Shown here: positions 19,015-39,848 of the stretch, piece after piece
How the letters are laid out: each line of letters opens with the position of its first letter
Position numbering within the stretch: the first letter of the stretch is position 1
Virus record (IMG/VR): IMGVR_UViG_3300035698_010649
Location: 1-40,634 of that record
Length of the DNA: 40,634 nt
Direction: 5' to 3' (one strand)
Source of the DNA: a virus
Translations under genes and position numbers: made by a program
The notes under the pieces: generated by a model
What the model was told of the DNA's origin: nothing
Databases searched by the model: none
What the model saw: only the letters and a program-made list of their open reading frames with translations

Positions 19015-19614
19015 TCAGATCATCGTGCAAAGCTCACGGTAAACGTCGATAGTGGTCAACACGTCACCGAGAGCATCATGGCTTCGGGGAGTGGTGATCC
19101 CCAAACGCTTGGCCATGATCCCAAGCTGGAGCCGAGCGAAGGGTAAGTTCTGGCACCGCATCGCTGCGACGTCATTAAGGAACGCCCCTACTGTCATTGT
19201 GTCCCTAGCCGGGATAGCAAACATTTCCTCAAAGGCTGGGTCAGTCAGCAGCACTCGGATAAAAGGTTCATCGAACTTTCCGTTGTGCCACAAAGGTTGC
19301 AGCCGGTATCCAGACGGCAGATCCAGGGAAGCGTACCATTCATGAAACTGATGTTCAACAGTTTCACGGGGTGGGTAGGCGTCCAGAATCTGGTGTGTAA
19401 GTCCGGTTGCGTTCAGTGCATGAACGTTAATCAACTCAGGGCGTTCCGGGCGTATCCCACTATAGAACGGCTTCCCGGAGAAGGGGCGTAAGTCAGCAGT
19501 CACGGGGACAAAAGCGATCTGAATGACCTCGTGGTGCCCACACACAAGGCCGGTCGTTTCAACGTCAATCCCGCAGAGGATTGACTTACCTTGGGAGATA
19601 AGGCCAGGGATCAT
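19015..19614 (-). CDS. DEDDh 3'-5' exonuclease (DnaQ/RNase T-like)
   Basis: The protein has 199 residues with the full DEDDh set: D17 and E19 in GIDVETTGL, D115 in HNGKFDEPF, and H179 and D184 in RSHDALGDV. Such enzymes degrade or proofread DNA or RNA with two metal ions. It overlaps the end of the MazZ-like gene (ATGA). Because the phage polymerase has its own exonuclease domain, this one more likely acts in repair, recombination or RNA processing. Confidence 0.88.
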   Translation of the reverse strand: MIPGLISQGKSILCGIDVETTGLVCGHHEVIQIAFVPVTADLRPFSGKPFYSGIRPERPELINVHALNATGLTHQILDAYPPRETVEHQFHEWYASLDLPSGYRLQPLWHNGKFDEPFIRVLLTDPAFEEMFAIPARDTMTVGAFLNDVAAMRCQNLPFARLQLGIMAKRLGITTPRSHDALGDVLTTIDVYRELCTMI

Positions 19615-20336
19615 TTTAACACCGCCATTGCACTACGGATGGTCTTCCCACTACGTCTCATGGATGCCCTTGCAGCCACTATGTTAGTATCTGCAAAGAC
19701 GGACGGACTTTCACTTGGAGTCCCGTCTTGGTCTATGACCGAATATAGATGATTCAGTCTCCCGGCACAACACAAGTTATCAAATCTACAGTAGCCCCTC
19801 TTGAAGCTCGAATCCAACTTCTCCATCTGTGCTTCTGTTACATGATACCGCCACCTCCCGACCCCACCAGCAGTACCTTCAATAAACTCAGGAGCCGTCG
19901 GAGCCGTCGGAGCCGTCGGAGCCGTCGGAGCCGTCGGAGCCGTCGGAGCCGTCGGAGCCGTCGGAGTCTCGTACTTCTCGATAAGGGTGGCCACCTTTTC
20001 ATTGAGGATTCCCTGGATCTGGATTCCGTTGGGCGGACGGTCATCGTTGGCACAGTCGTGCAAGATTGCATCTCGCAGCACAACCAATGAAGCGATGGCC
20101 TTCGTGATATGGTGGAGCCCCGAATCCGGGTCAATGTCTTCTCCGACGATGTACGAGGAGATATGGCGAATGGCAGCGTCAGTGTAGACGCAGACGTTCA
20201 CGTTCGTGTGCCGCCAATTGTAGCGTCCATACTTCAACTTACCCTCAGTCAGGGCACAGGCTACTTCCAGTACCACCTCGATCGGGCAATTCGACACGCA
20301 GACTTTTGCTTGACCGACTTTATCTTTTGGGTTCAT
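19611..20336 (-). CDS. MazZ-like dATP/dGTP diphosphohydrolase-domain protein with TAP-repeat linker
   Basis: From ATG 20336 the protein has 241 residues. Residues of about 1-100 match the dATP/dGTP diphosphohydrolase N-terminal (MazZ-type, DUF5664) pattern: start MNPKDKVGQAKV, then LTEGKLKYGRYNWR, a Tyr-Thr-Asp-Ala-Ala-x-Arg-His segment, and GEDIDPDSGLHH. Then comes a linker of eight Thr-Ala-Pro units and a C-terminal ~90-residue region of unknown fold. MazZ enzymes remove diphosphate from dATP/dGTP. Upstream starts (20387) add residues unlike the family and overlap the next gene more. The stop overlaps the exonuclease start. Confidence 0.75.
   Translation of the reverse strand: MNPKDKVGQAKVCVSNCPIEVVLEVACALTEGKLKYGRYNWRHTNVNVCVYTDAAIRHISSYIVGEDIDPDSGLHHITKAIASLVVLRDAILHDCANDDRPPNGIQIQGILNEKVATLIEKYETPTAPTAPTAPTAPTAPTAPTAPTAPEFIEGTAGGVGRWRYHVTEAQMEKLDSSFKRGYCRFDNLCCAGRLNHLYSVIDQDGTPSESPSVFADTNIVAARASMRRSGKTIRSAMAVLK
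19891..19962 (-). repeat. 9-bp minisatellite encoding (TAP)n
   Basis: Eight perfect head-to-tail copies of ggagccgtc on the plus strand encode Thr-Ala-Pro repeats on the minus strand. A length of 9 keeps the frame. The repeat forms the flexible Pro-rich linker of the MazZ-like protein and is a likely hotspot for copy-number change by slippage. Confidence 0.95.
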
Positions 20337-20370
20337 ACTGCTGGACTTTGTGGTGTGTAGGGGAAAGGGA

Positions 20371-20553
20371 CTAAATCGAATCTTCATAGACGGGGTCTAA
20401 GTCGAGATCATCATCAAGGCGACAAATGTCGACGAAGGCGTCAGGGTCACCGCTGATGGCTACCAAAGCTGTCTCCTCAATTGGAGTTGGCTTCTCAATA
20501 GAAACGTGGGACGCAAGAATCGTCTTGCCCGAGCGAACTGTGATGTTGTACAT
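20371..20553 (-). CDS. Small acidic protein of unknown function
   Basis: From ATG 20553 the protein has 60 residues. The start MYNITVRSGKTILASHV is compact and beta-like. The C-terminal third is very acidic (Asp/Glu/Leu pattern DICRLDDDLDLDPVYED). It overlaps the upstream gene by 59 bases, longer than most overlaps here, which lowers certainty about the start. It lies in the minus-strand replication block. Confidence 0.55.
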   Translation of the reverse strand: MYNITVRSGKTILASHVSIEKPTPIEETALVAISGDPDAFVDICRLDDDLDLDPVYEDSI

Positions 20554-23604: not shown

Positions 23605-24447
23605 TTGCCGCATCCGGTAAAATTGAGTCCGAGAATCCTACGAATCCGTAAATTGCCGAGCGAACCCATGCAGATCTCCATGATTCCCGTATCCGACCTT
23701 CGGCCCAGCCCTCTCATTTTGCGACGGGTCGACCGGTCATCGCTCGAATACTTCCAGCTTCGTGAATCAATCGCCGCCGTCGGTTTGCTTCAACCCCTTT
23801 TAGTAAGAAATGAAAATGAAGTGGTTGACGGGCTTCATCGCCTAGCTATACTAAAGGAACAGAAAACGATCCTAGCCCCGTGCTTGGTGCGGGATCTGTC
23901 AGATGAAGAAGTTTTGCGGGTTCAAATTGCCGCCAACGAGGTCCGCTGTCCAACAGCAATGATCGACTTGGCCAAGCGACTGTGGAGAATCGTGCATGAC
24001 GATGGAGTCAATGTCAACCAATTGGCACACCAGCTTTCTCGCAGCCCGCATTGGGTCAGAAGCGTGCTCAATTTGAATCGGCTCTGTCCAGAGGCAAAAG
24101 CCGCCATGGAAAATAATCAGCTTTCTTTAAAGAAAGCGATTGACCTTGCAAAGCTTCCAATTACAATACAACTAACGGCCTTAACTGAGTCAGACGACGA
24201 CGTGAAGGGCAGAGTCAGACGATTTCGGTCTGGCGAGACTTTGAAGCGTGTCGAAAATAAATATGATGGAATTAAACCTGCCTTCAGACAGTATCGTGAG
24301 GTGTGCGATGAAGTAGACAGTTTACAGAACGCAGGGACCGCCCTGATTACAGCGTCAGCCGTTACAACCCTTGACGGCTGGCGTGAGGCGATACGATGGG
24401 TACTACAAATCGATCCTACATCCTTAAGAAAGCGAAAACGAAAATGA
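23605..24447 (+). CDS. ParB-like nuclease/partition-domain protein (first copy)
   Basis: The protein has 280 residues from TTG 23605, with AGAGAGG upstream. An ATG at 23668 is an alternative that would lose 21 residues. Residues of about 20-120 form a ParB N-terminal domain, including SIAAVGLLQPLLVRNENEVV and DGLHRLAIL (equivalent to the GERRxxA box), then IAANEVRC. A KorB-like HTH region (about 130-190, LAHQLSRSPHWVRSVLNL) and a basic tail (RKRKRK) follow. Roles could be partition-like DNA binding, transcription control or nuclease activity. It is divergent from the primase-helicase, and its stop overlaps the next ATG (ATGA). Confidence 0.8.
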   Translation: MPHPVKLSPRILRIRKLPSEPMQISMIPVSDLRPSPLILRRVDRSSLEYFQLRESIAAVGLLQPLLVRNENEVVDGLHRLAILKEQKTILAPCLVRDLSDEEVLRVQIAANEVRCPTAMIDLAKRLWRIVHDDGVNVNQLAHQLSRSPHWVRSVLNLNRLCPEAKAAMENNQLSLKKAIDLAKLPITIQLTALTESDDDVKGRVRRFRSGETLKRVENKYDGIKPAFRQYREVCDEVDSLQNAGTALITASAVTTLDGWREAIRWVLQIDPTSLRKRKRK

Positions 24448-27804: not shown

Positions 27805-28971
27805 ATGGGCATCAATTACAACCAAGTCCGCAAGCTTTCCGCCGGGGGCAAGTCTCAACGTGAGATTGCAAAGTCGCTGGGAATAAGTCAGTCGTACGTC
27901 TGTGATATCCTCACCGGTAAAGCCGGTTGGACTGACAACGGGGCCGCCAAAGTCCAAAAGATGCGGGACAAGTCTCTTGAAGACCGCCGAACGCTGCGGA
28001 CTTCCCTTCGGGCTGAGAACCTCTTCGAGGAAGCCTGCAAAGTCATCCGGGACTCGATCAAGCCACTGGTCCCACCCTCAATCCCGAAGCCACACGGTGG
28101 CAAGATCGTCGAGACTGCGGTGCTTCACCTGAGTGATGGGCACCACGACCAAGTCGTCGATCCAGCCGACACCGCTGGGCTTGAGACGTACAACTTTGAC
28201 GTGTCCTGCCAACGTGCGGCCAACCTGGTTGACACAGTAATCCGATTCACACAGCAGACGCTCCAGAACTTCAGCTTTCCTAAGTTGGTTGTCCTGGCCT
28301 ACGGTGACCATACCAGCGGCGAGATTCACGGGCATGAACAGAGGTCACACTTCCGCAACCAGATTAAGAACGACTTGGCAATCGGTCAACTCCACGCATT
28401 TATGCTGCGTGAACTGGGGTCCTACTTCCCACAAGTCGAGGTCCTGTACCTGGCTGGCAATCACGGTCGCAAGACTGACCGAAAGCTGTTTCCTGGTGGG
28501 CCACACGACAACCACGACTACATGATTGCTCGGATTGCTCAGGCCCACTTGCTAGCACAAACGAATATCAAGTTCGAAATCCCCAACTCGTGGACGTCGC
28601 TGAAAGATATTGAGGGATACAACTTCCATGTTTCCCACGGTGATGACGTTGGCTCTTGCATCGGCGAACCTTGGAGTGGACTACGGAAACGTCACGAACG
28701 ATTGGCACCGCTGCACAGGACCAAGATCGATTACCAGGTCATTGGCCATCACCACACGTTTGGGACGGTGGCCGGGAACGGCACAGATTACCTCTGTAAC
28801 GGTGCTTGGCTGGCAACCGACGCATACGCCTACAATTCGCTTGGAGTCGCAGGAGACCCAGTTCAACTGCTCCACGGCGTACACCGTGACCACGGTGTGA
28901 CCTGGCGGTTGCCAGTACGCCTACGTGACGGCAATAACTCCAACCGATATCTAAACGCAGTGCAAGTATGA
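27805..28971 (+). CDS. HTH-calcineurin-like metallophosphoesterase
   Basis: The protein has 388 residues. An N-terminal helix-turn-helix (SQREIAKSLGISQSYVCDIL) is fused to a calcineurin-like core with D111GHHD, GD168HTSG, GN219HGR, H278GDD and GHHH (315-317). These residues bind two metals. Related phage enzymes are Mre11/SbcD-like nucleases or phosphatases; the HTH suggests targeting to a DNA site. AGGAATA precedes the ATG. The stop overlaps the second ParB-like gene (ATGA). Confidence 0.82.
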   Translation: MGINYNQVRKLSAGGKSQREIAKSLGISQSYVCDILTGKAGWTDNGAAKVQKMRDKSLEDRRTLRTSLRAENLFEEACKVIRDSIKPLVPPSIPKPHGGKIVETAVLHLSDGHHDQVVDPADTAGLETYNFDVSCQRAANLVDTVIRFTQQTLQNFSFPKLVVLAYGDHTSGEIHGHEQRSHFRNQIKNDLAIGQLHAFMLRELGSYFPQVEVLYLAGNHGRKTDRKLFPGGPHDNHDYMIARIAQAHLLAQTNIKFEIPNSWTSLKDIEGYNFHVSHGDDVGSCIGEPWSGLRKRHERLAPLHRTKIDYQVIGHHHTFGTVAGNGTDYLCNGAWLATDAYAYNSLGVAGDPVQLLHGVHRDHGVTWRLPVRLRDGNNSNRYLNAVQV

Positions 28972-29615
28972 AAGTTCCCGTCGAGAACATAACTCTTGGA
29001 CCGAACGCCAGCCGGGCAGATGTTGGCGACTGCTCGGAGCTGGCGGTGTCCATTCAAACCCACGGCCAGCAGCAACCGGTTGTGGTCCGTGATGGTTACG
29101 GTGACAACTACGTCCTGGTCTCCGGCTTCAGACGGTATCATGCAATCCGGTTCTATCTCCAGTGGACGGAGATTGACGTGAGGGTCGACGACGGAGACAC
29201 GCCAGATAGTACCCTAAACTTGGTAGAGAATCTGCACCGAAACAACCTTTCATTCTGGGAGGAAGCTCTTGCTCTGAAGAAAACGTTTCCACTTGACACA
29301 CCCCTCTCTGACGTAGCACGCCAGCTCGGTAAGTCGAGGATCTGGGTCCGCCCAAGATTCCACTTGTGGAATATGCCTGAGTGGGTTATACTGGGAGCAC
29401 GGGAAGGTCGCTTGTCGTCTGGGCAGGTCGCTGCCCTGATGGCCGGTAAACCATCCGCCAACACTGGATCGATTCGTGCTGCCAACCGGCCGTGCGACAA
29501 ACAACTACGTGCGGTCGCAACCATTCTCTTATCCGAAGGTAAGGTGGAGGCGGCAACCGCAATCACCTACGCACTCGGAGATATCCCCCTTGAGAAACTG
29601 CTTCCTGGACACTGA
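28968..29615 (+). CDS. ParB-like nuclease-domain protein (second copy)
   Basis: The protein has 215 residues. The ParB core shows SIQTHGQQQPVVVRDG, LVSGFRRYHAIR (GxRRxxA box) and LNLVENLHRNNLSFWEEA. A HTH-like region (LSDVARQLGKSRIWV) follows. It shares the domain with the 23605 gene, but the similarity outside the core is low. The polymerase starts inside its end (overlap 26 bases). A role in DNA binding or control of the polymerase operon is inferred. Confidence 0.8.
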   Translation: MKVPVENITLGPNASRADVGDCSELAVSIQTHGQQQPVVVRDGYGDNYVLVSGFRRYHAIRFYLQWTEIDVRVDDGDTPDSTLNLVENLHRNNLSFWEEALALKKTFPLDTPLSDVARQLGKSRIWVRPRFHLWNMPEWVILGAREGRLSSGQVAALMAGKPSANTGSIRAANRPCDKQLRAVATILLSEGKVEAATAITYALGDIPLEKLLPGH

Positions 29616-31905
29616 AACTTGCGGTCTATACGGGCCGCCAGTTATCCTGCAAGTCGGCTTCGACAAGCAGAAAGCATTCGTCCATAACATCTGGGAAACT
29701 CCCGTTAAGCACACCTTACGACTGATTGAAAAGATCGTCGGCTGCCGGGTGATTGCCCATAATCTCAACTTCGACTGGCAGAAAATACAATCCCTCTATG
29801 CCAACTTGACCATCCTTGGCCGCGAGGAGGGGATGGGAGTTGAACCTAAGGATCATATCGAGTTCTACGCCAACGAGTGTGAGCCCAACGGGTGGGCAGA
29901 GAACTTGTGCCTCAAGCCAGCCGGGGCCATCTGCACTCTTTTGCTGGCCCAGAAGAAACTGGGGGGCACCAGCCTTGCGGCAAAGGCAATCTACATCCGC
30001 AAGGTTCCCGCGATCGCCGCCCAACAGTTGTGTGACGTCTTCCATAGCACGATGGACTTGCCACCAATCCTGTTTGTCCATCGAAAGAATCCGTGGACTG
30101 TCCGGGACAGCGACCACGGCAAACAGTGGAAGGATGTTGTGCTATCCTTCGGACCCTCCAACGCACTAAAAGAGGTGTGCAAGCACGTGCTCAAGCAGGA
30201 GGTTGTGACGTGGGAGGATTCCGAAGCTGGCGGCCTTGTATGGCCCACCGAGGAAGGGTTCTGCCCCATTGCTGCCAAACTTAACCAGGGCGACTGGCGG
30301 TACGATGGCGGGCTCCTGTGGCCAGCCTTGATCCAATCTCATATCCATCACTGGACCAAGAGCGAGAACGGCAACAAGTATGCGTTGTCTGATATCCACC
30401 TGTTGCGGTCCTTGTATACCCACTTTGGTTCACCGTCCGAAGACTTTGACTCAGAACTGTGTGTCCAAGTTGCTTGCAGTCGAGTTCGTGGTTTTGACTT
30501 CAATGTAAGTTCGATGGTCGACCTCAGCATCGAGTCCAGCAATTATGTTGCTTCGGCCCAGCTTAATGTTGACTCACCAAAGCAGGTTCGAGAGTACATC
30601 GCCGCTGCACTTGATCCAGCCGAAGCGATTATCGTTGAGAAGTCCGCCGCCAAACTTGTGTTGGGCAGAATCCGTAAGACCTTCACCTTAGATGAGGAGG
30701 AGGAATGTTGCGACGATGGCTGTGTCCGCTGCAACTTCACCGGCAAGATCGGACCTGGGCCGATGCCAGTTGTGGACCGGGTTGACCATATCGAATCGAT
30801 CCGCAAACACAACAAGCGGCTACAGATGTTCCGCAAGCTCCTAACAGCCGGGAGAGCCTACCCAAACTTCAAAGTAGTTGGAACCAAGTCAGGTCGCATG
30901 TCTGGGACTGACGGTTTGAACTTCCATGGGATTGAGAAGAAACGTGATATCCGTGACCTGTTTGTACTAAGACGTCCCGGTTGGGTATTGAGTGGCGGAG
31001 ACTATGATTCCCAGGAACTAGCCATCGCTGGAACCGCTTATGACGACGAGATCCTGGTTACGGAAATCGCCAAAGGCAAGTCGCTGCACGGCCTGTTTGG
31101 TGCCGAAGTGTATGGCACAACATACGAGGATATCATGGGGAACAAGGCAGATGGCCGCTATGACAAGGCTAAGACGGGCATGTACGCTCTCCTGTATGGA
31201 GCCTCACCCCATAAGATTGCAACGTCCCTTGGCATCCCTGAGAATGAAGCCAACGAGGCTCTTGGGAGATTCTTTAAGAAATACGCGAGCACGAAGAAAA
31301 CACGTGATCGCCTGACAGCGGAGCTTTCTTCCCTGGTATCCGACGACTCCGGGGCGATACACTGGGCTCAACCAACCACTCAACTCGTAAGGTCTGTATT
31401 CGGTTTCGAGCGTTCGTTCGACATTGAGAACAGTGTAATCCAGATGTTGGTTAACACGCTGCCCAAGCTGAAGGGGCTGTTTGGGAAGTTCAAGGCTATA
31501 GTAGAGCGTAAGAAAGACAAACCGCAGACCATCAGTGGTGCGTGTCATTCCGCCGTCTATGGTGCTGCGTTCAGCTTGCAAGGTAAGATCGTCCGGTCAG
31601 CTCTCAATCATATCATTCAAAGCTCCGGGCGGACAGTCACGCTCGGCTTGCAGCACAACTTGTGGTCACTCCAACCGACCGGGATCAACCCTTGGCGGAT
31701 CAATCTTATGTCGATTCACGATGAGGTGGTCGTTGAGACAGCCCCTGAGGATGTTTCCGTCGTACTGGGAATGGTTCACGACAAGCTGCAAGAGCAATGC
31801 CAGACGATTCCGCTTTTGTCCATTGGGTGGGCGTGCAACCTTACATCGTGGGGGGAATTGAAGTCCGCAAAGGGGACGCATTGCGGGTTTGCTATTCCTG
31901 ATTGA
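29590..31905 (+). CDS. Family A DNA polymerase with 3'-5' exonuclease
   Basis: The protein has 771 residues from TTG 29590, with GGAG at 29577-29580. This start makes the exonuclease motif begin at residue 5, as expected. Exo motifs are D7TE9, HN58LNFD62 and Y264xxxD268. Polymerase motif A is GGD471YDSQEL. Motif B is AK528TGMY532ALLY536G, and motif C is SIHD711E712. A small CCxxxCxxC cluster lies at about residue 372. It replaces or supports the host replicase. Position 532, corresponding to F762 of E. coli Pol I, is Tyr. The Arg of motif B appears shifted by one residue. Confidence 0.9.
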   Translation: MRNCFLDTETCGLYGPPVILQVGFDKQKAFVHNIWETPVKHTLRLIEKIVGCRVIAHNLNFDWQKIQSLYANLTILGREEGMGVEPKDHIEFYANECEPNGWAENLCLKPAGAICTLLLAQKKLGGTSLAAKAIYIRKVPAIAAQQLCDVFHSTMDLPPILFVHRKNPWTVRDSDHGKQWKDVVLSFGPSNALKEVCKHVLKQEVVTWEDSEAGGLVWPTEEGFCPIAAKLNQGDWRYDGGLLWPALIQSHIHHWTKSENGNKYALSDIHLLRSLYTHFGSPSEDFDSELCVQVACSRVRGFDFNVSSMVDLSIESSNYVASAQLNVDSPKQVREYIAAALDPAEAIIVEKSAAKLVLGRIRKTFTLDEEEECCDDGCVRCNFTGKIGPGPMPVVDRVDHIESIRKHNKRLQMFRKLLTAGRAYPNFKVVGTKSGRMSGTDGLNFHGIEKKRDIRDLFVLRRPGWVLSGGDYDSQELAIAGTAYDDEILVTEIAKGKSLHGLFGAEVYGTTYEDIMGNKADGRYDKAKTGMYALLYGASPHKIATSLGIPENEANEALGRFFKKYASTKKTRDRLTAELSSLVSDDSGAIHWAQPTTQLVRSVFGFERSFDIENSVIQMLVNTLPKLKGLFGKFKAIVERKKDKPQTISGACHSAVYGAAFSLQGKIVRSALNHIIQSSGRTVTLGLQHNLWSLQPTGINPWRINLMSIHDEVVVETAPEDVSVVLGMVHDKLQEQCQTIPLLSIGWACNLTSWGELKSAKGTHCGFAIPD

Positions 31906-31911
31906 TTTATC

Positions 31912-31939
31912 TTGACACAGCTTGCCGGTTAGTTAAAAT
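31912..31939 (+). promoter_or_regulatory. Promoter before the first GC-x2-GQA family gene
   Basis: A perfect TTGACA (31912-31917), 16-base spacer and TAAAAT (31934-31939). It lies 33 bases upstream of ATG 31973 and just after the polymerase stop. Confidence 0.8.
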
Positions 31940-31972
31940 AAACACTCACAATCAAACCAGCATTAGACTAAT

Positions 31973-32359
31973 ATGAAAACCGAACTAAGAACACTTCTGA
32001 AGACCGTACGTGACTTGATTGTTGCGACTCCCGGTTTTCGTTATTACCCAGAGAGTGCTGGGGCAAAGTGCAATTACAACAAGGGTGGGGACCCAGACTT
32101 TCCACTCCAGGTGGGGTGTTTGTTCGGTCAAGCCCTGAGATCGTGCGGTGAGGAAGTCAGTAAAAGAGACGAGGGGGATGCACTGACTCAGCTTTATGGC
32201 GGGAGTAACGTTCCGCTAATACTATTCCTACAATCGGTCCAAGATAGCCAGGACGCCGGAACAAACTGGCGGCAGAGCTGGGATTTCGCTATCCGGAATG
32301 CAACTCCAGAAGCTCTTCGAGCCGTGAAGCGGCATGTTCCGTTGAAACTTCCCGAGTAA
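31973..32359 (+). CDS. GC-x2-GQA family protein, copy A
   Basis: The protein has 128 residues. The family pattern is FRYYPESAGAKCNYNKGGD, a Pro-Leu-rich turn, GCLFGQAL and Gly, then a linker, a helix with LFLQSVQDSQDAG, and a Trp-x6-Trp end. The same order occurs in the next four genes, so this is one of at least five tandem paralogues. Related small proteins with (S/G)CxVGxAL motifs are common in actinobacterial phages without known function. It has its own strong promoter. Confidence 0.75.
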   Translation: MKTELRTLLKTVRDLIVATPGFRYYPESAGAKCNYNKGGDPDFPLQVGCLFGQALRSCGEEVSKRDEGDALTQLYGGSNVPLILFLQSVQDSQDAGTNWRQSWDFAIRNATPEALRAVKRHVPLKLPE

Positions 32360-32365
32360 TTCTTC

Positions 32366-32393
32366 TTGACACTACCTTACACACGATTACAAT
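32366..32393 (+). promoter_or_regulatory. Promoter between copies A and B
   Basis: TTGACA (32366-32371), 16-base spacer, TACAAT (32388-32393). The -10 overlaps an in-frame ATG at 32392, so translation must start further on, at 32434. Confidence 0.8.
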
Positions 32394-32433
32394 GATGATT
32401 CACCTGTCACCCCTGTCACCCCATGAGAAAACA

Positions 32434-32817
32434 ATGCCTCGTCCATCCGCCGAAGAGGTCCTGGTTGCTGCTAAGAAACTGATTGACGCCACCCCCGACT
32501 TCGTGTACGTTGCCCCGTCGATCGTCTGCCGCTACAATAGTGGTGGGGACGTCCGATATCCTGGCCAATGCGGTTGCTTGCTAGGCCAAGCACTGTTACA
32601 GTGTGGTTATCGTGTGCCGGACACTTGGGAGGGGTCAGGAATCGCTTCTCTGATTAGATCTGGGAACGGGATCGAAGAGTTCCTAGACACACTTCAAGCC
32701 GCACAAGACTCTTCTGTTCCATGGGAAGACGCCTGGGCGTACGCTCTCGAACAATGGAAGTCCGACCCGGTAGTTACTGACTGTATTAAATCACTTACCG
32801 CTACGGAGCCAGAATGA
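32434..32817 (+). CDS. GC-x2-GQA family protein, copy B
   Basis: From ATG 32434 (127 residues) the family features are TPDFVYVAPSIVCRYNSGGD, VRYPGQCGCLLGQALLQCG, then LDTLQAAQDSSVPWEDAW. It has the fullest consensus of the set and an extra Cys in the core (CGC). The upstream ATG at 32392 is rejected because it lies in the -10 box. The stop overlaps copy C (ATGA). Confidence 0.8.
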   Translation: MPRPSAEEVLVAAKKLIDATPDFVYVAPSIVCRYNSGGDVRYPGQCGCLLGQALLQCGYRVPDTWEGSGIASLIRSGNGIEEFLDTLQAAQDSSVPWEDAWAYALEQWKSDPVVTDCIKSLTATEPE

Positions 32818-33185
32818 TCCCCACTTGTTATAAGCTGCTCCAGGCTTGCAAAGAGCTGGTAGAAGAGTTTCCGGACTTCGTTTATTCGAAGCCGTATAGA
32901 GATAGCACAACCTGCTCATATACTTTGGGCGGCGATGCTCGATACCCGGACAATGTTGGCTGTATTGTCGGCCAAGCTTACAAGCGTCTTACTGGGAAGG
33001 ATGTTCCCGACGCTTACGACGATGCAAGTGTCGCCGACCTGGTAGGTTCAAGCCTACTTGCTATCGGTAAGACTGACGTGGAAAATGAAAAGTTCCTAAA
33101 CAAGTTGATACTTATTCAGGAGCGGCAAGACCTGGGGGAGAGGTGGGTCGATTCGATGGACGCTGCCAAGTTACTTTCTGATTGA
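32814..33185 (+). CDS. GC-x2-GQA family protein, copy C
   Basis: The protein has 123 residues with FPDFVYSKPYRDSTTCSYTL, GGDARYPDNVGCIVGQAYKR, VPDAYDDASVADL and LILIQERQDLGERW. It is closest to copy D over the RYPDN-x-GCIVGQA core and the LTG-x-x-VP step. ATGA overlap with copy B indicates coupled translation. Confidence 0.8.
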   Translation: MIPTCYKLLQACKELVEEFPDFVYSKPYRDSTTCSYTLGGDARYPDNVGCIVGQAYKRLTGKDVPDAYDDASVADLVGSSLLAIGKTDVENEKFLNKLILIQERQDLGERWVDSMDAAKLLSD

Positions 33186-33210
33186 TAGATCCCAAAACAC
33201 ACCGACAGAC

Positions 33211-33247
33211 TATTATGAAACCGACTACCAGTCAACTGTATGCCGAA
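33211..33247 (+). repeat. 37-bp direct repeat, first copy
   Basis: tattatgaaaccgactacca and the next 17 bases are identical to 33561-33597. The unit covers the ATG and first 11 codons of copy D. It may have arisen by gene duplication followed by loss of most of the second copy, or by recombination between start regions. Confidence 0.95.
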
Positions 33248-33550
33248 TGCCAGAAGCTGGCCGAAGAGTTGCCAAACTTCTTGTACGAACCAGAGGATCT
33301 TGCAATAGGGTGTTCAAATACCCAGGGAGGAGACGGTCGCTACCCCGACAACTGCGGTTGTATTGTTGGTCAAGCATTCAAACGCTTGACTGGCGAGCTC
33401 GTGCCAGAACAGCATGACCTTGCCGAAGTCACCAGCCTTATTAGCTATAAAGTTGTCCAGCACGATAGCTGCCTTGAGGAGATTAAATCCCTCCAAGCCA
33501 AACAAGATGATGGCTATACCTGGGCCGTCGCGATAAAGTTTAAGGCTTAA
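33215..33550 (+). CDS. GC-x2-GQA family protein, copy D
   Basis: From ATG 33215 (111 residues). Features: LPNFLYEPEDLAIGCSNTQG, GDGRYPDNCGCIVGQAFKRL, TGELVPEQHDLAEVTSL and IKSLQAKQDDGYTWA. A TTG at 33182 would add 11 residues, but the ATG at 33215 lies inside the duplicated start segment (also at 33565), which supports it. Confidence 0.8.
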   Translation: MKPTTSQLYAECQKLAEELPNFLYEPEDLAIGCSNTQGGDGRYPDNCGCIVGQAFKRLTGELVPEQHDLAEVTSLISYKVVQHDSCLEEIKSLQAKQDDGYTWAVAIKFKA

Positions 33551-33560
33551 CCCACGAGAT

Positions 33561-33597
33561 TATTATGAAACCGACTACCAGTCAACTGTATGCCGAA
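33561..33597 (+). repeat. 37-bp direct repeat, second copy
   Basis: This is an exact copy of 33211-33247, 350 bases downstream. The identity ends at once after codon 11, so the downstream frame is unrelated to copy D. Confidence 0.95.
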
Positions 33598-33705
33598 ATT
33601 GCCACCCTGATTTACTGTGATGAAGTAACAAATAATAACCAGGTCGCGGCCAACCGCCTCGCCCGCCTCCAGCAACTTCAAGATATCGGGAAAGTTTGGG
33701 GGTAG
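33565..33705 (+). CDS. 46-residue protein sharing its start with copy D
   Basis: Starting MKPTTSQLYAEIATLIYCDE and ending LQDIGKVWG before TAG 33703-33705. The first 11 residues equal those of copy D. The rest lacks the GC-x2-GQA core but ends with a Leu/Gln-rich helix with LQQLQD-x-G, like the family end. It may be a deletion product of a family member (N-terminus joined to a C-terminus) that could be expressed. Confidence 0.5.
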   Translation: MKPTTSQLYAEIATLIYCDEVTNNNQVAANRLARLQQLQDIGKVWG

Positions 33706-33727
33706 GCGATTATTCTCGCGGATAAAC

Positions 33728-33755
33728 TTGACACCCACGACCAGTGAGCTATACT
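33728..33755 (+). promoter_or_regulatory. Promoter before copy E
   Basis: TTGACA (33728-33733), 16-base spacer, TATACT (33750-33755). A good AGGAG follows at 33776-33780. The in-frame start at 33744 would lie in the promoter, so 33786 is the true start. Confidence 0.8.
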
Positions 33756-33785
33756 ACAATCTCACGACACCACCCAGGAGACAAC

Positions 33786-34427
33786 ATGATTACGAACCAA
33801 CAGTGCGGTGCCAGCAGTTTGGCCTGCCGAGTAATGAACGAAACCTTCCTGACCCTAGGTTCGTTCGAAGACACGCGAGCCTTTGGAGACCCTCTTGGAT
33901 TCGCCAGCTCCCTCGCTCGCGTTGTCGACCGAACCCTTAAAGGTCAGAAGCGGTTCACACGTCAGCAGGCTGAAGCTGCTGCGGTCTCAATCGTCCAAGA
34001 CACGTTTGGCTCGTTAGACGGGTTCGCCCCCTACCGTGCTGCCTACCCACTGTTTGCTCAGCATTTGATCCCTGTCATTGTTTTGATCCTGTCCGAGCAT
34101 GAGTTGGTCACAGAGGTTAGGAGCTTGGCATCCAAGTATCCGAGCTTCCGGTATCGGGGAACCGACAGATTCAGCTCCAACTACAATGTTGGCGGGGACA
34201 GAGCGTACATTGGCCTGCACGGATGCATCATCGGGCAAGCCCTTCGACGTATCGGAGGGCAGAGGTATGTTCCAATCGACGGAGCTGCTGGGCTGACAGC
34301 TTCAGAGCTGGGCATTGACTTGACTGAGCATGATGAATACTTTTTAGATTCAGTCCAGCAGCTCCAGATGCGTCATTCTTGGTCCGAGGCTGTCAGCTTA
34401 ACCGATGATATGCTGCAAAATGCGTGA
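33786..34427 (+). CDS. GC-x2-GQA family protein, copy E, with N-terminal extension
   Basis: The protein has 213 residues from ATG 33786. About 105 extra N-terminal residues are helical with Cys near the start (MITNQQCGASSLACRVMNET) and a Gln/Ala-rich helix. The family core follows: YPSFRYRGTDRFSSNYNVGG, DRAYIGLHGCIIGQALRR, then VPIDGAAGLTASEL and SVQQLQMRHSWSEA. This copy has lost the Cys before the Tyr-x-x-Gly-Gly step (Asn instead). AGGAG is well placed. Confidence 0.78.
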   Translation: MITNQQCGASSLACRVMNETFLTLGSFEDTRAFGDPLGFASSLARVVDRTLKGQKRFTRQQAEAAAVSIVQDTFGSLDGFAPYRAAYPLFAQHLIPVIVLILSEHELVTEVRSLASKYPSFRYRGTDRFSSNYNVGGDRAYIGLHGCIIGQALRRIGGQRYVPIDGAAGLTASELGIDLTEHDEYFLDSVQQLQMRHSWSEAVSLTDDMLQNA

Positions 34428-34896: not shown

Positions 34897-35102
34897 CGAT
34901 GTACAACATAGCCTGGCACGAAGAATGCCTCAGAAACCAGAGCGAGCACCACGCCCGAGAGCTGGTTCTATTGCAGAGCCAACAGGATAGAGTTGATAGG
35001 TTGGCCAAGAGCATCAGCGAATACCGAGAGCAGATCGATCTCGCCGTGCGTAAACGCAAAACCCATTTTGACCGAGAAAAGTTTAACAGAAAGAAAAGCT
35101 GA
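34893..35102 (+). CDS. Small coiled-coil protein
   Basis: The protein has 69 residues, starting MTMYNIAWHEECLRNQSEHH. Residues of about 15-60 have heptad-like Leu/Val spacing with Gln, Arg and Lys, and the end is basic (FNRKKS). ATGA overlaps the preceding stop; TGATG overlaps the next gene. The function is unknown. Confidence 0.65.
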   Translation: MTMYNIAWHEECLRNQSEHHARELVLLQSQQDRVDRLAKSISEYREQIDLAVRKRKTHFDREKFNRKKS

Positions 35103-35485
35103 TGATGATTTATTTAGCGACACCTTACTCACATCCTGATCCCGCAGTTCGGCAATCCCGTTTCGAAGCGGCCAATCACATGACTGCCGCTCTTATCGAA
35201 GCTGGCTATGTCGTTTTCAGTCCAATAAGTCATTCTCACGTAATTGCCCCTTACTTAGTGAGGGAGTCGACCGATTGGGACTTTTGGAAAGAGCAAGACC
35301 TGCCGATGCTGGCAGCTTGTAAGAGGTTGGTCGTGATGACTTACGATCCGGCATGGTCCAAGTCCGTTGGTGTGTTAGCTGAGATTGAGTTTGCCAAGGT
35401 TAACAATATCAAAACCATCTACCTGCCTGAAACGCCCAAAGAGTTTAGTGATCTACCGCCCCGGTTCAGGCTGGTAGAATGGTGA
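35102..35485 (+). CDS. DUF1937-like protein (deoxyribosyltransferase-like fold)
   Basis: The protein has 127 residues: MMIYLATPYSHPDPAVRQSR, then a helix with AALIEAGYVVFSPISHSHVI, WDFWKEQDLPML and SVGVLAEIEFAK. This is the DUF1937 pattern, structurally like nucleoside 2-deoxyribosyltransferases. The S/GVxxEI segment is the place of the catalytic Glu in that fold. A role in nucleotide metabolism or signalling is inferred. It overlaps both neighbours. Confidence 0.75.
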   Translation: MMIYLATPYSHPDPAVRQSRFEAANHMTAALIEAGYVVFSPISHSHVIAPYLVRESTDWDFWKEQDLPMLAACKRLVVMTYDPAWSKSVGVLAEIEFAKVNNIKTIYLPETPKEFSDLPPRFRLVEW

Positions 35486-35868
35486 AGCAGCAACCGCTTG
35501 AATCTACGCTCCAGACCGCTATCTGCACGTTCCTACGGAAGCGGAAGTGGACTGTCAAGGCTACACACGGCAACGCTTTCCAATCAGGCTTTCCTGACTT
35601 GTTCGCGTTCAACAAGCCGTACGGTTTTCGTTGGATTGACGTTAAACGGCCTGTTGGCTATCGACTTACGAGGGCACAGATTGTTACCTGGCCTGAGTGG
35701 GAAGCTGTTGACCTTGGCGTTTGGATCATGACTGCCGCCACCGAGGAGGAGTACCTGAAGCTTTTCGGGCCGCCGAACTTTCGGCAATACTGGTCCAAAA
35801 GTTATGACAAACATCTGCGATCTCTTGACTCGATCCTGGATGAGATTACAATGGACGTAGAGGAATAA
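35479..35868 (+). CDS. VRR-NUC/PD-(D/E)XK nuclease
   Basis: The protein has 129 residues. An E8 in a helix (ESTLQTAICTFLRKRKW) is followed by SGFPD40LFAF and D54VK56, the PD-(D/E)XK set of the VRR-NUC type. Such small nucleases cut branched DNA (Holliday junction-like) in repair and packaging. It overlaps the DUF1937 gene by 7 bases, and its 3' part holds a promoter for downstream genes. Confidence 0.8.
   Translation: MVKQQPLESTLQTAICTFLRKRKWTVKATHGNAFQSGFPDLFAFNKPYGFRWIDVKRPVGYRLTRAQIVTWPEWEAVDLGVWIMTAATEEEYLKLFGPPNFRQYWSKSYDKHLRSLDSILDEITMDVEE
35825..35852 (+). promoter_or_regulatory. Promoter in the end of the nuclease gene
   Basis: TTGACT (35825-35830), 16-base spacer, TACAAT (35847-35852), the same layout as 32366-32393. 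It is about 45 bases ahead of ATG 35897. Confidence 0.65.
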
Positions 35869-39254: not shown

Positions 39255-39848
39255 ATGGGTCGCATTGTTGTCAGTTTTATAGCCTGCATTTCCGTGCTCA
39301 TATCAACCGCCTTAGGGCAAGTGCCTGGTCGGTTTGACGTCAGCCCGATTCCAATCCCGGAGTACATCGCCAAAGTTCAGGTGGTAGGTGTGCCGTACAC
39401 CTACACAGGGACTGGAGTTTATGTAAGCCCGGTCACGGCGGTGACTGCCGCCCACAATGTCAGAGACCTCGACAGTAAGTCTCAGTTGTTTGTTGACGGA
39501 GTGGAAGCTGAGGTAGTGTATAAGAATGACCAACAGGACTTCGCCATCCTGAAGCTCTCAGTTGGCAGTAAAGATGGTCCGTTCCCAAAGTTATCCAGTG
39601 ACCTGTCCGGGTCTCTCACCGCGTGCGGCTACAGGGGAGGGGTTCGCTATACTGAGAATGTTGGCAACCACAAGTCAGGAAGGTGGGTCACAGCCGAGGT
39701 CCAGCGAGGAATGTCAGGCGGACCTGTGTTGAACCAAGTGGGAGACCTTGTGGGAACGATTATAGGTGGCGGACCTGGGCGGGATACATATATCACAGAT
39801 ATCTTCCTGATAGTAGACGAGCTAAGGGGGAGGGGTTTGCTGGAGTGA
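39255..39848 (+). CDS. Exported trypsin-like serine protease
   Basis: The protein has 197 residues. Residues 1-22 form a signal peptide (MGRIVVSFIACISVLISTAL then Gly-Gln), with cleavage near residue 21. The catalytic triad is H67 in TAAHNV, D95 in QQDFAILKL and S154 in RGMSGGPVLN, typical of trypsin/DegP-like proteases; no PDZ domain is present. It probably acts in the periplasm or outside the cell, on host envelope or rival proteins. GAGAGAAAA precedes the ATG and a terminator follows. Confidence 0.85.
   Translation: MGRIVVSFIACISVLISTALGQVPGRFDVSPIPIPEYIAKVQVVGVPYTYTGTGVYVSPVTAVTAAHNVRDLDSKSQLFVDGVEAEVVYKNDQQDFAILKLSVGSKDGPFPKLSSDLSGSLTACGYRGGVRYTENVGNHKSGRWVTAEVQRGMSGGPVLNQVGDLVGTIIGGGPGRDTYITDIFLIVDELRGRGLLE

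Follow-up and report, generated by a model that had tools for sequence, protein, structure and literature searches.

PHROG 572 is a phage protein family annotated as of unknown function; the libraries we searched assign it none, and a literature search for phrog_572 returned no paper. Its relatives occur in phages of Rhodococcus, Gordonia and Mycobacterium, and further matches were found in Streptomyces and Microbacterium phages. The family seems to be mainly phage-borne, since just five of the 151 genomes sampled from one bacterial family gave a match, the seed genome being among the five. In phages chosen because they contain at least one member, we counted five copies in each of the Rhodococcus Weaselvirus phages Weasels2, Grayson and Peregrin, three in the cluster E mycobacteriophage DoctorDiddles, and two each in Trax and Courthouse. 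The Weaselvirus copies sit among small genes of no known role near lysin B and elsewhere, away from replication genes. Genes of another family, DUF6197, are present in multiple copies in Gordonia A15 phages, one of them beside DNA polymerase I (PMC10586128).

A first experimental clue comes from phage LeBron, whose gp43 is a member of PHROG 572 (E 1e-26). The 123 genes of LeBron were each cloned for overexpression in M. smegmatis; in the available part of that report gene 43 is absent from the toxic genes, and a test proved impossible for gene 46 alone (PMC13148394). By elimination gp43 is probably non-toxic, as far as that part of the report extends and in a screen that gave no protein levels, which favours defence assays over growth-inhibition tests for this family. 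Two other sources were considered as clues. Cytotoxicity papers on Hammy, Girr and Waterfoul were set aside because those phages carry no member, and Cjw1, Omega, Kostya and LeBron all go unmentioned in the main text of a 2020 paper on toxic genes.

Here we analyzed a locus at which five members of this family stand side by side. The preliminary description had singled it out as the best candidate for an undescribed system; the protein family, however, was already catalogued, as PHROG 572 and without a function. What is new is the arrangement of this known but uncharacterised family: a contiguous array in which strong promoter sequences accompany the genes, one copy is fused to an extra part and another is decaying.

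Layout and homology of the five copies

The window, i.e., the whole stretch of DNA analyzed, is the 40,634-base virus record IMGVR_UViG_3300035698_010649. Its genes include those for a P22-like coat protein and for a DNA polymerase of family A. As shown in Table 1, the five ORFs A–E were all confirmed on the plus strand at the positions first assigned to them, and no defence gene was recognised beside the array. Elsewhere in the window, two ParB-like ORFs were found at 23605-24447 and 28968-29615 (PF02195 and ParB-like PHROGs), together with two adjacent tRNA genes at 2313-2469, one for tRNA-Ile with the unusual anticodon AAT and one for tRNA-Asn, and a tRNA-Ile(TAT) gene at 28371. An ORF at 105-1367 contains collagen-like Gly-Pro repeats in near-identical tandem units, and in the central part of a minus-strand ORF at 19611-20387 the unit Thr-Ala-Pro recurs about nine to ten times. 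Near the end of the record, a protease-like ORF (39255-39848; phrog_9683, E 2.5e-9) has a possible signal sequence.

Table 1. Coordinates of the array and of the features next to it
Feature	Positions	Strand	Remarks
Family A DNA polymerase ORF	29476-31905	+	PF00476, E 1e-25; array directly downstream
Promoter P1, TTGACA-16-TAAAAT	31912-31939	+	11/12; before copy A
Copy A, 128 aa	31973-32359	+	PHROG 572, E 8e-9
Promoter P2, TTGACA-16-TACAAT	32366-32393	+	11/12; before B-C-D-D'
Copy B, 127 aa	32434-32817	+	PHROG 572, E 5e-11; model pLDDT 93.3
Copy C, 123 aa	32814-33185	+	PHROG 572, E 3.5e-9; start overlaps B stop (ATGA)
Copy D, 111 aa	33215-33550	+	PHROG 572, E 1e-9; sister of C in the tree
Start region of D, 41 nt	33207-33247	+	repeated at 33557-33597 (98%)
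D', sixth copy, 46-aa ORF	33565-33705	+	D start and C-like tail, core missing
Promoter P3, TTGACA-16-TATACT	33728-33755	+	11/12; before copy E
Copy E, 213 aa	33786-34427	+	PHROG 572 domain at 34101-34421, after a helical N-terminus of ~100 aa
Deoxyribosyltransferase-like ORF	35102-35485	+	downstream of array
Endonuclease-like ORF	35479-35868	+	downstream of array

All five copies matched PHROG 572 (E 1e-8 to 5e-11). In A, C, D and E the best-matching stretch was nearly full-length, whereas in B it covered the first half and a second piece accounted for the rest. This confirmed an earlier expectation that relatives without a function would be found in actinobacterial phages. Searches of Pfam and NCBIfam gave nothing above threshold for A–E. 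PADLOC, whose models represent defence systems and not anti-defence proteins, matched none of the copies at E up to 1, and none was placed among known anti-phage defence proteins. A presumed match to Rhodobacter phages was rejected, being short (E 0.9), and RcOceanus gave no profile match; LeBron gp63 (E 9e-4) was likewise rejected as a member, its core motif being absent.

Judged by their sequences, A–E are true paralogues. The other copies are 31–35% identical to copy A, and identity between copies is about 30%. In pairwise phmmer comparisons every pair was recovered, with E values from 4e-9 to 3e-26, and the resemblance spans the whole domain of about 110 residues. A profile built from 19 phage proteins from outside the window matched all of A–E (E 2e-10 to 8e-15) and none of 1000 shuffled copies. 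These two results ruled out that the copies align through chance Gly-Gly-Asp motifs alone. When the window copies were compared with the phage family profile against profile, the probability was 99.1% (E 1e-18).

The alignment of A–E has 18 invariant columns, which include Phe-x-Tyr, Gly-Gly-Asp, Gly-Cys-x-x-Gly-Gln-Ala and Gln-x-x-Gln. Of the motifs noticed at first, Val-Pro is present in only four of the five copies, copy A having Val-Ser. Copy E carries Ser at the position of the first Cys and is missing the Asp that follows the second Gln. Across 24 diverse sequences including A–E, Cys48, Gly51 and Gln88 (numbering of copy B) are invariant, and Asp92 and Trp97 nearly so. Two subtypes of the family were observed on another contig with three copies (L022), one with Ser-Cys-Ile-Val-Gly-Gln-Ala-Leu and the other with Cys-Cys-Ile-Val-Gly-His-Ala; the latter lacks the Phe-x-Tyr segment.

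Promoter sequences, copy E and the broken copy D'

Separate promoters had been proposed for the copies. We use the term promoter for matches in sequence. Only three places on the plus strand of the 40.6 kb (31912, 32366 and 33728) carry a sigma-70-like site with 11 or more of the 12 letters matched, compared with 0.2 expected in resampled sequence. All three have a 16-nt spacer, and they precede A, B and E. The proposal therefore stands in part: there are strong promoter sequences for three units, but not one for each of the five copies. The three units would likely be A, B-C-D-D' and E, because C overlaps the stop codon of B and only short gaps precede D and D'; C is probably translated together with B, given this same overlap. 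For copy B we preferred the start at 32434, because the start of a longer ORF at 32392 overlaps the -10 box. The stretches around the -35 boxes of P1 and P2 are 79% alike over 19 nt, and duplication of the gene may have taken the P2 stretch with it.

In copy E the family domain is confined to the C-terminal half. The preceding part was predicted to be helical with low confidence, and it gave no match when compared with the PHROG families.

The short ORF D' combines parts of two neighbours. The opening 41 nt, start codon included, repeat those of D at 98%. The tail resembles C: a stretch of 33 residues aligns ungapped with the C-terminus of that copy (p 0.0005 in comparison with shuffles). The core with Cys, Gly-Gly-Asp and Gly-Cys-x-x-Gly-Gln-Ala is missing. 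At the joint stands the hexamer GCCGAA, and because this hexamer recurs elsewhere inside D, D' likely arose by deletion between short repeats. These features show D' to be the product of a duplication followed by loss, i.e., a decaying sixth copy.

Origin of the array and predicted fold

In order to place the copies among their relatives, a maximum-likelihood tree of 34 members was calculated from 116 columns. The five window copies formed one group (support 84/85), within which A and B (98/92), C and D (96/87), and A to D (95/81) were joined, so that the branching follows the gene order. This grouping, with neighbours paired, points to stepwise local duplication and supports the repeated local amplification postulated in the preliminary description. 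Deeper forks are uncertain because the branches are long and the columns just 116. Three of the paralogue types of the Weaselvirus phages formed a separate clade, each of these types being common to several phages. Amplification has therefore probably occurred independently at least twice in the family, and the Weaselvirus copies have probably been kept. A search of the window copies against viral contigs gave no matches, and queries with the polymerase and the exonuclease-like protein revealed no related phage with the same array.

Copy B, modelled with AlphaFold2 from 24 sequences, was predicted with high confidence (mean pLDDT 93.3, pTM 0.87) as a protein of five helices, with Cys48 directly before the second helix (49-56). 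Nothing similar was found for this model in a fold search of the PDB (best E 5.7), and a sequence search of the PDB gave chance-level matches only. Among predicted viral structures, the matches at E up to 0.001 were all uncharacterised or unnamed proteins; the named phages among them were Trax, Weasels2, Trina, FlowerPower and Octobien14. The model of copy E was weaker (pLDDT 72), and its top matches came from the same set of proteins: both models ranked the Weasels2, Trax and Trina proteins among the best. Differing folds would have told against kinship; B and E, the two copies modelled, are instead predicted to share one fold. A confident model that has no match in the PDB makes copy B a good structural target.

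Possible roles and comparison with known systems

Our preferred interpretation, to which we would give a probability of roughly 40%, is that the copies are accessory proteins, made early and non-toxic, whose partners differ and come from the host, from defence systems or from rival phages. Accessory binding proteins fit best with the combination of putative early promoters, repeated duplication, strong divergence around a constant core, and probable non-toxicity. Under this scheme host RNA polymerase would transcribe the genes early, as the three units given above, and each product would be a compact cytosolic binding protein whose variable surface docks on a target of its own, be it a protein of the host, of a defence system or of a rival phage. 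The bound target would be blocked or redirected without cell death, and each duplication would bring further targets within reach. As for the constant core, the Cys with which the second helix begins, the Gly, the Gln and the segment Gln-x-x-Gln-Asp...Trp would hold the fold and not form an active site. The gene for Trax gp45, just after the repressor, Cro and excise genes, has an early-lytic position. The repeated expansion in other phages is the pattern expected if different targets are useful, and the absence of LeBron gene 43 from the toxic genes, in the part of the report available, is what one would expect for an inhibitor of accessory rather than essential host functions. Counter-defence, as suggested in the preliminary description, is a plausible candidate role. 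We put forward only tentatively the bolder version, a diversified toolkit on one new fold in which every duplicate has its own host-defence or rival-phage protein to inhibit and the scaffold is expanded to this end by independent phage lineages. Repeated multiplication, the keeping of divergent copies and the strong promoter sequences would indicate a role under selection for variety.

The main alternative is a helper role in phage DNA replication or recombination: the proteins would be small accessory factors that attach to the polymerase, the exonuclease or the annealing protein of the phage, multiplied for dosage or for different sub-complexes. We regard this as rather unlikely, but it has the support of gene neighbourhood: the array lies directly after the gene for DNA polymerase A and before nuclease-like ORFs, a cluster E relative lies between the genes for an exonuclease and an ERF ssDNA-binding protein, a cluster J relative follows right after an exonuclease gene, and in Trax only a few genes separate one copy from those for Cas4 and ERF. 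Since many members are single and next to recombination genes, a housekeeping role fits these as well. Early genes, however, gather near replication genes anyway, and the Weaselvirus copies are not beside such genes. Strong promoters of their own, identities of about 30% and a fused extra part are also untypical of multiplication for dosage.

It is improbable that the copies are enzymes that differ in substrate and use a nucleophilic Cys at a helix start, with Gln or His and Asp nearby. The invariant Cys48, Gly51 and Gln88, the nearly invariant Asp92 and Trp97, and the position of Cys48 in the model of copy B are compatible with such a site, but there is no conserved catalytic triad, the PDB search gave no enzyme fold, and a Cys-x-x-Gly pattern could equally pack the core; moreover, copy E has neither the first Cys nor the Asp. 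Selfish or neutral duplication through recombination or slippage, without separate roles, appears about equally improbable: D' is broken and the 41-nt repeat marks recent recombination, yet five ORFs are still open at about 30% identity with their core intact, and the Weaselvirus paralogues persist as orthologues across phages, which suggests selection. Least probable of all are sponges or sensors of small molecules (nucleotide immune signals or metabolites), one for each copy, which would suit proteins that are small, present in several copies, probably both soluble and early, and apparently non-toxic, but for which searches of Pfam, PADLOC (defence-system models only) and PDB folds showed no similarity to known sponges.

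Among known systems, the one closest to the array is PHROG 572 itself. The window copies share with that family Phe-x-Tyr, Cys-x-Tyr, Cys-x-x-Gly-Gln-Ala-Leu and Gln-x-x-Gln-Asp...Trp, although single copies deviate in places; in contrast to it, they add Gly-Gly-Asp-x-x-Tyr-Pro before the Cys and form a group of their own, and copy E carries a fused N-terminal part. The Weaselvirus sets resemble the array in having five copies per genome, some of them adjacent and overlapping, but they are spread over two genome regions, and three of their paralogue types lie in a separate clade. Members in clusters E and J (DoctorDiddles gp67 and Courthouse gp108) belong to the same family, with two to three copies per genome; unlike the tandem array, they are scattered single genes, one of them by exonuclease and ERF genes.

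DUF6197 (PF19698) is similar in that its proteins are small and have an N-terminal helical stretch followed by a Cys-x-x-Gly-like core. However, none of A–E matched PF19698 at E up to 1, compared with 87 bits for Nebulosus gp47, and the copies were therefore rejected as DUF6197 members. A profile comparison by hhalign gave a weak link (P 0.004, probability 8%), with P values of 0.14 to 0.89 for column-shuffled controls and 0.09 for the reversed one; it is only suggestive, and a remote kinship is possible. We also rejected the Nebulosus gene beside DNA polymerase I as an instance of the same arrangement, since it belongs to DUF6197 and lies upstream in transcription order. The multi-copy DUF6197 genes of the Gordonia A15 phages nevertheless provide a parallel to the array that is worth following (PMC10586128).
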